From Bacteroidota bacterium (GTDB lineage Bacteria; Bacteroidota; Bacteroidia; Bacteroidales; GCA-2748055), in contig QMPQ01000007.1 of NCBI GenBank assembly GCA_003648635.1, positions 1 through 35,356 on the forward strand: a stretch of 35,356 nt of DNA, written 5' to 3'. Of this stretch, positions 29,893-33,173 are shown in pieces (position 1 is the stretch's first letter; each line of letters starts with the position of its first letter). Made by a program: the position numbers and the translations under genes. Under the pieces are notes generated by a model. The model made no database searches, was not told where the DNA came from, and saw only the letters and a program-made list of their open reading frames with translations.

Positions 29893-29939
29893 TGGGGTGC
29901 TTTTTACGCAAGTTATTCATTCCCCAATAACCTACAACA

Positions 29940-29969
29940 AAAGCTGCCCGCCGGGAGACGAGCAGCTTT
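29940..29969 (-). terminator. Candidate terminator after the acidic secreted protein gene
   Basis: AAAGCTGC and GCAGCTTT form a perfect 8-bp stem around a GC-rich 14-nt loop. On the minus strand TTTTGTTGT follows, a weak T tract. It lies about 70 bp beyond the stop of the acidic protein gene and before the J-domain gene. Confidence 0.5.
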
Positions 29970-30037
29970 ACACCAATAAACCCTAAACTAAACCAAAATT
30001 GCCTGCTAAAGCATCTTAAACTACTTCTACTTGTATT

Positions 30038-30742
30038 CTATTTCTTTTCCTTCTTTTTAACAACTTTCACTTCCACTTCTACTTCTTCGCCGTGGTCACT
30101 GTCATGGTCATGGTCCACATCGTGATCCTCATGCAAATCTCCACTCTCAGTTATAACGATCACTTTCACATTCTCTCCATCACCCTCTTCTTCCATGATC
30201 TTCATAACCTTTACTTTCACATCATCATCTCCCTTCATGATAAAGACATTCTCATCCTTATCCATCATCTTCTCATCACCTTCGACTACAGTCCAGTTAC
30301 CCTCTTCATCGCTCGAAACCATTACTTTAATCTCCTTCTTCTTTACCACATCACCGCTCTTCATCACGATCACTTTTTTGCCATCATGCTCTTCCTCTGT
30401 CACCCAAACAAGGGAGTCTCCATGAAGCTCTGAGATTTCAGTTGTCTCACCATCCTTGGAGATAAACACCATTGTTTTTGCTTCACCGTGTCCAGAATGT
30501 GCCGTTGTATAGTTATATGTGACATGCTCCTTATGCAGTTCATCACCACTCATAAGCTCCATCATTTTCATCGCATTCTTAGCCTCTGCGGCATCATCAA
30601 ACTGGTAGCTTGTGTCCTTAACTACCTTGCCATCCTTTGTCACCTTGATGCTCATCTCGATTTGCTCCTGTGCCAGGAGTCCGGTCGAAAGAATAAGCGA
30701 GGCGGCAATACTTAATATCCAAAAGGGTATATATATTTTCAT
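30038..30742 (-). CDS. Secreted acidic, Asp/His-rich protein next to a two-component system
   Basis: The 234-residue protein has a Sec signal peptide (residues 1-24, ending LLAQ) without a clear lipobox, so it is probably periplasmic. The mature part is highly charged. Alternating patterns (EIKVMV, VKVKVMKI, NVKVIVI, EVEVEVKVVKKKEKK) suggest repeated beta strands. Residues 202-219 (DLHEDHDVDHDHDSDHGE) form a cluster of Asp and His that could bind divalent metals. Met is also frequent (MKMMELMSGDE). I recognise no named domain. It diverges from the histidine kinase gene, an arrangement similar to cpxP beside cpxRA, which suggests a regulated sensor partner or stress protein. That role is inference. 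Confidence 0.8.
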   Translation of the reverse strand: MKIYIPFWILSIAASLILSTGLLAQEQIEMSIKVTKDGKVVKDTSYQFDDAAEAKNAMKMMELMSGDELHKEHVTYNYTTAHSGHGEAKTMVFISKDGETTEISELHGDSLVWVTEEEHDGKKVIVMKSGDVVKKKEIKVMVSSDEEGNWTVVEGDEKMMDKDENVFIMKGDDDVKVKVMKIMEEEGDGENVKVIVITESGDLHEDHDVDHDHDSDHGEEVEVEVKVVKKKEKK

Positions 30743-30765: not shown

Positions 30766-30773
30766 CAAATCTA
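30766..30773 (-). promoter_or_regulatory. Putative -7 element for the acidic secreted protein gene
   Basis: The minus strand reads TAGATTTG, an exact TAnnTTTG match 23 nt before the ATG. The usual -33 TTTG is missing. The phased GTTAAA repeats begin 21 bp upstream, where an activator would replace a weak -33 contact. Confidence 0.5.
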
Positions 30774-30794
30774 TTCCAGAATATCGTTAGATAG

Positions 30795-30821
30795 GTTTAA
30801 AGGAAGTTAAAGAATGTTAAA
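30795..30821. promoter_or_regulatory. Three helically phased direct repeats, candidate OmpR-family regulator site
   Basis: GTTTAAA (30795), GTTAAA (30806) and GTTAAA (30816) recur at 11- and 10-bp steps, one DNA turn apart. This spacing is typical of OmpR/PhoB-type regulators, and CpxR itself uses GTAAA-N5-GTAAA. The site lies between TAGATTTG for the secreted protein and TATCTTTG for the kinase, so the linked response regulator is the obvious candidate binder. Confidence 0.5.
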
Positions 30822-30849
30822 ACACTCTGAATGAACCGATGAGGTGAGC

Positions 30850-30861: not shown

Positions 30862-32463
30862 ATGAGCAGAACCTTTCTGTGGATAGTATCCCTTTTCCTT
30901 GCATTCGGCATGGTGGCCATGATCCTGGTTCAAGGATACTGGATCAGGCGCTTCCTGGAGAATGAGGAGCATCAGCTTGGATTGGTTGTCAATGAAGTAC
31001 TTTCAGATATCTCCGACGAACTGGTTCAGAATGAAACGGTGATCACCATCCTCAATGAGATCCAACCCCCGGTAATTCAACACCAGAGTCAGGCAGTTTG
31101 GAACTTCCATATTGATAGCCGTTCTTCCTATGACCGGACAGAGAGCACTGTGGATATTGCCATTGAGGCAGAGGACATCTATGAGGAACACACAACCTTT
31201 AGCTATACACCACCTGATATTTCTCTGAAAAACCAGAAAGTACAGATGATCAATGATTCACTTCTGGTAGTTGTGGGTGAAGACATTTCCATGCGGGATA
31301 CCATCCTTGTTTCGGCCATGCACCCGGACATTGTCAGAAAGGAACTCAGAAACCAGGTAAAGAAACAAGAATACTTCGTAGATCATATTGTCAAGAAAAT
31401 GCTCATGGAAGAGGGTCAGGTATTGGACAATATCTCCGGCTCAATGATTGAAGCATCCCTCTCTGAAAAACTGACAACCCGGGTTGGGGATTATCCTTTC
31501 GAATACGCGGTATATGAGATGGGGCGTAAACCCATATACAGTTCGGAAAACTTCAATGAATATGAGCAATGCAGGTATTTCAGGAGATCCCTGTTCCCAA
31601 ACAGTGTATTTAATCGTTTCGTCTACATCAGTATTTATTTTCCCCAGGAAAGGCAACTTCTTCGCAATTCTATTAAAATCATGGGGGGATCATCTGTGAT
31701 AATCACGCTGTTTATTATTATCATGTTCAGCCTGACCCTATATATCATGTTTAAGCAGAAGCGTCTCTCGGAGATGAAGAATGACTTTGTTAACAACATG
31801 ACCCACGAACTTAAAACGCCTATCTCGACCATCAGTCTGGCCTCACAGATGCTCAATGACCGGTCGATTCCGGATGAACAGAAAAATCTGGGCCATATAT
31901 CCCGTATTATCCAAACAGAAAGCAGGCAGTTGGGTTACCAGGTAGAACGGGTGCTCCAGATGGCTATTTTTGATCACGGAGAGCTAAAGCTGAAAAGCGA
32001 AGCGGTGGATCTGCACGATATCATTGAGACTGTGGCGCAGAACTTCCTGTTGCAGATGGATAAACGGGGAGGAAAACTGGAGTTTCATCCGGAGGCAGAT
32101 CAATCTGTGATTACAGGTGACCTGATGCACCTCACCAATGTGATCTCCAACCTGATGGAGAATGCCCTGAAATATACCAATCGCAAACCCGAAATTACCA
32201 TTTCCACTCTGAATGAAAACAGCTCCCTTGTGGTCTCAGTGGCCGACAATGGAATTGGGATCAGCAAAGAAGATCAGAAACGTATTTTCGATAAGTTTTT
32301 CCGGGTCCCCACAGGGAATGTACACAATGTAAAAGGGTTTGGGCTGGGCCTTAGCTATGTCAAGCTAATTGTGGAAGAACATGGAGGTACCATTAAAATA
32401 AAAAGTGAGCCCACTGTGGGCTCCCGGTTCGATATTCACTTACCTTTAGAAGAGCAATCATAA
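30862..32463 (+). CDS. Membrane sensor histidine kinase
   Basis: The kinase senses an envelope signal and phosphorylates its partner regulator. I start at ATG 30862 (MSRTFLWIVSLF), not the track's GTG at 30844, because the first span begins there; the product has 533 residues. Membrane spans at about 7-25 and 272-297 flank a periplasmic domain of about 245 residues that I cannot assign. The HisKA domain has H315 in VNNMTHELKTPISTISLA. The ATPase domain has NLMENALKYTN (N434), VADNGIGIS, FDKFFRVPTG and GFGLGLSYVKLIVEEHGG. No HAMP domain is evident between the second span and HisKA. The regulator gene follows 11 bp later, and the acidic secreted protein gene diverges upstream. Confidence 0.93.
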   Translation: MSRTFLWIVSLFLAFGMVAMILVQGYWIRRFLENEEHQLGLVVNEVLSDISDELVQNETVITILNEIQPPVIQHQSQAVWNFHIDSRSSYDRTESTVDIAIEAEDIYEEHTTFSYTPPDISLKNQKVQMINDSLLVVVGEDISMRDTILVSAMHPDIVRKELRNQVKKQEYFVDHIVKKMLMEEGQVLDNISGSMIEASLSEKLTTRVGDYPFEYAVYEMGRKPIYSSENFNEYEQCRYFRRSLFPNSVFNRFVYISIYFPQERQLLRNSIKIMGGSSVIITLFIIIMFSLTLYIMFKQKRLSEMKNDFVNNMTHELKTPISTISLASQMLNDRSIPDEQKNLGHISRIIQTESRQLGYQVERVLQMAIFDHGELKLKSEAVDLHDIIETVAQNFLLQMDKRGGKLEFHPEADQSVITGDLMHLTNVISNLMENALKYTNRKPEITISTLNENSSLVVSVADNGIGISKEDQKRIFDKFFRVPTGNVHNVKGFGLGLSYVKLIVEEHGGTIKIKSEPTVGSRFDIHLPLEEQS

Positions 32464-32474
32464 CTGAATGTGCA

Positions 32475-33173
32475 ATGAATGAAATAAAAAACAGGATATT
32501 ACTGGCAGAAGATGATGAAAACCTGGGGTCCTTGCTCCAGGAATATCTCCAGGCAAAGAATTATGAAGCTGACTGGGTCACCAATGGCGAGAAGGCCTTC
32601 CGGCATTTTGAACAGTTCCACTACGACCTGTGCCTGCTGGATGTCATGATGCCCATCAAAGACGGTTTTACCCTGGCCTCTGAAATAAGGATCATGAACA
32701 GCAGCATCCCAATTATCTTCCTGACTGCTAAGTCTATGAAAGAGGATGTGCTGGAAGGCTTTTCCCTGGGAGCTGATGATTACATTACCAAACCCTTCAG
32801 TATGGAGGAGCTCTTGTTCAGAATTGAAGCCATCCTCCGACGAACAAAGGGAACCCGCGGTTTTGACAAAGAGAGCTGGGAAATTGGCTCATTCACATTT
32901 GACGTGAATAAACAGATGCTCACGGGAGATGGTACGGAACAAAAACTGACAACCAAAGAGTCAGAACTACTGAAGCTACTTTGCAATAACATCAACCAGG
33001 TATTGGAACGGAATTTTGCTCTCAAAGCAATCTGGATCGATGATAATTACTTCAATGCCAGAAGTATGGATGTCTATATCACCAAGCTTCGTAAGTACCT
33101 GAAAGCGGATCCAGGAGTACAGATCATCAATGTGCACGGGAAAGGTTACAAACTTGTCCTGGATGAAGGATAG
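32475..33173 (+). CDS. OmpR/PhoB-family response regulator
   Basis: This transcription factor is presumably phosphorylated by the kinase encoded 11 bp upstream. The receiver domain (about 6-120) has the acidic pair in LLAEDDEN, the phospho-acceptor D56 in LCLLDVMMP, T84 in FLTAK and K106 in ITKPF. The winged-helix DNA-binding domain (about 131-230) has LTTKESELLKLLCNNINQVL, the recognition helix in ARSMDVYITKLRKYL and the wing INVHGKGYKL. The length of 232 residues is standard. Phased GTTAAA repeats in front of the operon are its likely binding site, which would imply self-regulation and control of the divergent acidic protein gene. It converges with lepA. Confidence 0.95.
   Translation: MNEIKNRILLAEDDENLGSLLQEYLQAKNYEADWVTNGEKAFRHFEQFHYDLCLLDVMMPIKDGFTLASEIRIMNSSIPIIFLTAKSMKEDVLEGFSLGADDYITKPFSMEELLFRIEAILRRTKGTRGFDKESWEIGSFTFDVNKQMLTGDGTEQKLTTKESELLKLLCNNINQVLERNFALKAIWIDDNYFNARSMDVYITKLRKYLKADPGVQIINVHGKGYKLVLDEG

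Follow-up and report, generated by a model that had tools for sequence, protein, structure and literature searches.

In enterobacteria, micF and ompC are divergent genes under OmpR, and cpxP, whose 3′UTR yields the sRNA CpxQ, is divergent from cpxRA. Pho and OmpR boxes are direct repeats located one helical turn apart, near or replacing the -35/-33 element, and the step of the Pho box is 11 bp. The locus described here resembles both circuits in having an OmpR-family regulator, a putative operator between divergent promoters, half-sites arranged head to tail, and the regulator's own operon facing away from a secreted protein and/or sRNA. As in the Pho and OmpR boxes, the direct repeats are one turn apart and lie close to the -35/-33 element or substitute for it. 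The differences are the TAnnTTTG promoters of Bacteroidota, a GTTAA half-site of another sequence with a 10-bp rather than an 11-bp step, an unrelated protein and sRNA, and a regulation that is predicted in this case.

Also among the closest known systems are the RprXY pair of Bacteroides fragilis and RprY of Porphyromonas gingivalis, an organism that has no RprX (PMC3646045, PMC5706477). The present locus also has a kinase-regulator pair that includes an RprY equivalog. P. gingivalis RprY bound its own promoter in EMSA (reviewed in PMC5706477), and nqrA promoters are among its reported targets (PMC5706477). The literature searched on RprXY and RprY, including PMC3646045 and PMC5706477, yielded no RprY binding motif. 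FopS, a group of bile-salt-induced sRNAs, repress SusC translation in Bacteroides thetaiotaomicron (PMC11697453); the available text of that paper describes the induction by bile salts, and no regulator was found there.

The rprXY intergenic region

The sequence analyzed, referred to as the window, is the whole stretch of 35,356 nucleotides. Its relevant features are the following.

29935..30003, minus strand: conserved 3′ RNA element, a single-stranded GGTTTAGTTTAGGG stretch plus an intrinsic terminator hairpin; candidate 3′UTR-derived sRNA
30038..30742, minus strand: divergent gene for a secreted, acidic, fast-evolving protein; no Pfam or NCBIfam match
30766..30773, minus strand: -7 element TAGATTTG of the divergent promoter; CAAAnnTA, 31 bp before the half-site 3-4 core
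30786..30791, plus strand: half-site 1; GTTAGA here, GTTAAC or GTTAAG in other Bacteroidales
30796..30801, strand unassigned: half-site 2; TTTAAA here, CTTAAC or ATTAAC elsewhere, which is GTTAA on the minus strand
30806..30811, plus strand: half-site 3; GTTAAA, core of GTTAA-N5-GTTAA
30816..30821, plus strand: half-site 4; GTTAAA, identified like half-site 3 by column conservation and GTTAA-N5-GTTAA
30850..30857, plus strand: -7 element TATCTTTG of the rprX promoter; in nearly all loci 43-45 bp beyond the core of half-sites 3-4
30862..32463, plus strand: rprX-like sensor histidine kinase (HisKA and HATPase_c); orthologues begin at ATG 30862
32475..33173, plus strand: rprY, OmpR-family response regulator; NCBIfam NF051850, RprY equivalog

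The regulator scored 378.1 bits against NF051850 (curated cut-off, 370) and includes a receiver domain (PF00072) and a winged-helix output domain (PF00486). The kinase gene is located directly upstream of the regulator gene, an order kept in the relatives. The recognition-helix region of RprY, YFNARSMDVYITKLRKYL, is nearly invariant in this genus, in Bacteroides-type genomes and in Cyclobacteriaceae.

The intergenic sequence between the minus-strand gene (30038-30742) and the kinase-regulator operon (30862-33173) is GTTAGATAGGTTTAAAGGAAGTTAAAGAATGTTAAAAC. Positions 30795-30821 read GTTTAAAGGAAGTTAAAGAATGTTAAA, and the repeat array lies between the minus-strand TAGATTTG and the plus-strand TATCTTTG. 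The initial annotation described three copies of GTT(T)AAA at 11- and 10-bp steps. The three copies are present, with their TTAAA portions starting at 30797, 30807 and 30817, but a fourth half-site in the same phase, GTTA at 30786-30789, had been overlooked, and the array consists of two pairs. When aligned on TTAA, the four GTTAAA-type half-sites start at 30786, 30796, 30806 and 30816; the steps are exactly 10 bp and the extra T is part of the left side of the first copy. An operator of this family is expected to have at least two tandem half-sites 10-11 bp apart, and four were found. The window contains the pattern TTAAA-N5-TTAAA-N5-TTAAA a single time, and 100 dinucleotide shuffles never produced it. 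Since TTAA is palindromic, the orientation of half-sites 1 and 2 is ambiguous.

Both -7 elements, TAGATTTG and TATCTTTG, stand as originally described, as does the 28-bp gap that separates TATCTTTG from the last repeat. The proposal that neither promoter has a good -33 box was also borne out: TTTG and TTG are absent at the -33 spacing from both the divergent and the rprX promoters. Because the 5′-end of FopS in Rfam is likewise 4 nt after its TTTG, the rprX mRNA is probably leaderless, with its ATG 4 nt after TATCTTTG. A GTG at 30844 is upstream of the predicted rprX transcription start. The segment 30850-30864 reads TATCTTTG-GGCC-ATG, and the -7 box is separated from the ATG by 4-8 nt in most orthologues.

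Conservation of the box and its half-site pairs

The genome, 416 contigs, was examined by pattern searches of the kind proposed in the initial annotation, which was to define a regulon from the motif upstream of TAnnTTTG and took frequent occurrence of the repeat at random AT-rich sites as evidence against it. The bare pair GTTAAA-N3..6-GTTAAA was found at background level genome-wide, with 3+3 matches versus 3+3 in the reversed control, and defined no regulon. The combination of GTTAA-N5-GTTAA with TAnnTTTG 22-52 bp behind it is unique to a single position, the rprX operator. The search recovered the rprX site and no further ones in this genome, so a large regulon based on the strict box is unsupported.

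The array was found at the identical position in 20 of 20 orthologous loci of the same family; the relatives compared are Bacteroidales MAGs. The motif followed by a -7 box was present in 25 of 28 family genomes, with about 40 matches versus about 6 in the reversed control. Most of these matches are at rprX, and there is one in this genome. For a wider comparison, 72 loci were picked solely by RprY homology. In 51 of them the kinase gene is preceded by GTTAA-N5-GTTAA, while the shuffled expectation was 0.14 loci, and the 37.8 kb of upstream regions held 54 matches versus one in the remaining 629 kb. The loci that carry the box span Bacteroidales, Flavobacteriales, Cyclobacteriaceae and records labelled Chitinophaga. 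The other 21 of the 72 RprY loci have no GTTAA-N5-GTTAA upstream of the kinase gene, and most rprX upstream regions of Bacteroides/Prevotella-type genomes have no tandem repeat. Prevotellaceae RprY loci such as L073, L079, L107 and L129 are among those without the box upstream of the kinase, and autoregulation may therefore have changed there. The nqrA upstream regions served as an independent test of the box, and none of 24 had GTTAA-N5-GTTAA; nqrA is a reported target of P. gingivalis RprY, yet the box is absent from it in the genomes examined. PM2 of B. thetaiotaomicron, a near-palindromic -10/-30 motif according to its paper, was set aside as probably unrelated to the direct repeat.

In 33 non-redundant loci all four half-site columns peak at the 10-bp phase. 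These loci were selected via half-sites 3-4 and the -7 boxes, which in part predetermined the heights of those columns; the selection made no use of half-sites 1-2 or of the spacing, and the GTTA peak of half-site 1 is 1.5-1.9 bits. The divergent -7 box (CAAAnnTA) lies exactly 31 bp before the core formed by half-sites 3-4 in 38 of 41 loci, and the rprX -7 box follows that core after 43-45 bp in nearly all.

The two pairs appear to belong to different promoters, pair 1-2 to the divergent one and pair 3-4 to rprX. The clearest sign of this division is that, of 31 loci with a divergent -7 box, 23 have both half-sites 1 and 2, as against 0 of 30 loci that have no such box (Fisher p = 2.6e-10, a value inflated by the descent that relates the loci). 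Taken singly, half-site 1 was found in 28 of 31 versus 6 of 30 loci, and half-site 2 in 24 of 31 versus 6 of 30. Across Bacteroidota, half-sites 3-4 are found repeatedly, in association with rprX. In nine loci the minus strand of half-site 2 spells GTTAA, which the plus strand never does, and pair 1-2 may thus be oriented toward the divergent promoter.

The predicted divergent transcript

Homologues of the divergent protein were found in about 10 relatives, and the gene is present in about half of the close relatives; conservation is mainly N-terminal. The gene is lost in L031, L039, L046 and L047, and a remnant is left in L043 and L050. In these loci the promoter and the 3′ RNA element persist. 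The element consists of GGTTTAGTTTTAGGGTTAAT followed by the intrinsic terminator, in loci with or without the protein gene, and 7 of the 12 pairs of the terminator stem show two-sided changes. In L042 and L048 the gene for the secreted protein is shortened in frame, with its middle missing.

A covariance model of the element, R1, was built from 16 loci. Positions 29935-30003, themselves part of the model, scored 66.9 bits. Outside the model, R1 elements were found beside the rprX operator in six genomes (G003, G005, G009, G015, G016 and G017), while across the order the matches were mostly weak, several of them to terminators alone. In more distant Bacteroidales (L062, L078, L087-L100), the divergent promoter is immediately followed by a short RNA built in the same way. 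Since several loci in which the protein gene has disappeared or shrunk retain the RNA and the promoter, what is conserved on the divergent side is probably a small RNA, either independent or processed from a 3′UTR. A search of the window against Rfam returned only two tRNAs at threshold. The site as a whole is of an ordinary regulatory kind. It stands out by its phylum-wide motif and by the putative divergent RNA beside rprXY, which is pointed out here; no description of either was found in the literature searched.

Probable control by RprY and a possible link to the FopS sRNAs

The operator anatomy, its conservation, the fixed spacings, the association of pairs with promoters and the retention of the RNA without the protein are all read directly from the genomes compared. 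Taken together, they make it likely that the array is an autoregulatory operator of RprY that controls both rprXY and a divergent transcript for the sRNA and the secreted protein. Phosphorylated RprY would bind GTTAA half-sites head to tail every 10 bp, on one face of the helix. Half-sites 3-4 would be the main site, for autoregulation of rprXY. Half-sites 1-2, a second pair adjoining the divergent -7 box, would cover the missing -33 region and control the divergent transcript, predicted to carry the secreted acidic protein and, at its end, the conserved FopS-like small RNA; in several relatives it is reduced to the RNA. We infer that RprY is the protein bound to the half-sites and that the divergent RNA acts as an sRNA. 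The OmpR-type direct-repeat operator for both promoters proposed in the initial annotation thus gains from the RprY equivalog, the conserved phase, the fixed spacings and the pair-promoter association. Besides the number and step of the half-sites, the part that changes is the divergent product, of which the longest-conserved portion looks like a small RNA and not a protein.

The absence of -33 boxes and the OmpR- and PhoB-like positions of the half-sites lead us to favour RprY as mainly an activator. About 12 bp separate the end of half-site 1 from the -7 box of the divergent promoter, and a protein bound there could block the polymerase. RprY could then have opposite effects, activating (or repressing) rprXY and repressing the divergent promoter through occupation of its spacer and -33 region. 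This is rather unlikely, because a divergent promoter with no -33 box, an exact 31-bp spacing and a pair of its own fits PhoB-type activation better. It is considerably less probable that a different regulator, either another OmpR-family member or a nucleoid protein, controls rprXY from outside through the repeats. Such control would agree with the lack of the box at nqrA and Bacteroides-type rprX promoters, with the presence of similar half-sites at FopS promoters while the rprX promoters of the same genomes mostly have none, and with the fact that binding by RprY is deduced from sequence. However, the motif is almost exclusive to rprX, as autoregulation predicts, and it tracks the RprY gene across families, in which the DNA-contacting helix stays constant. 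Chance repeats with no function in an AT-rich spacer, which the background frequency of the bare GTTAAA pair might suggest, are refuted for practical purposes by the window shuffles, the 51 of 72 loci and the column conservation.

Autoregulation by RprY is the preferred reading. The analysis yields a candidate RprY binding motif that is conserved phylum-wide and testable in cultivated species, and it suggests RprY as a transcription factor that may act on the FopS sRNAs in gut Bacteroides. The divergent RNA shares with Bacteroides FopS (RF04319; PMC11697453) a single-stranded 5′ seed stretch followed by a terminator hairpin, an alignable GGU..UUUAAGGUUAAU and the half-sites at -63/-53. Unlike FopS, the RNA on the rprX side is a single copy beside rprX, often as a 3′UTR, with a sub-threshold score. 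The RNAs of L062, L078 and L057 match RF04319 exactly at the predicted place with 30-34 bits, below the gathering score of 56 that marks membership, and this genome has no match. When 50 FopS copies of other Bacteroidales were lined up by their -7 box, TTAA peaked at -63 (14 copies) and -53 (18 copies), positions that half-sites 1-2 also occupy with respect to the rprX -7 box. Both half-sites are present in 12 of the 50 copies versus 0.43 in shuffles. The rprX promoters of the FopS-bearing genomes mostly have no box, and in view of this and of its absence from nqrA, the connection between FopS and RprY is a lead and not a result. It is conceivable, although we hold it only tentatively, that RprY is a phylum-wide envelope-stress regulator that drives its own operon and FopS-type sRNAs through GTTAA-N5-GTTAA, and that Bacteroides FopS are RprY targets related to the sRNA divergent from rprXY. 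If so, the bile-salt-induced FopS sRNAs, which tune the translation of glycan transporters, would be under RprY.

Other conserved RNAs were observed. A second FopS-like RNA of the genus, CTTTTCATAGATTTAGTTTTAGGGTTAG plus a terminator, is located at G000:C5:28633-28703 on the plus strand (L294, this genome) and in relatives (L295-L300), and upstream of most copies lie GTTAAAGATA and TATTAACA, at a phase of roughly 10 bp. A third RNA, TTAACAATAGGGTTAGATTTAGGGCTTGAAAAGCTGTCC, has an upstream ATGAGAAATCTCAT-type palindrome (L301-L303; G006:C50, G010:C37 and G004:C72). A TATGTTNTATAACATA palindrome, perhaps the site of a second regulator, immediately precedes the -7 box in many FopS promoters (L131-L180).
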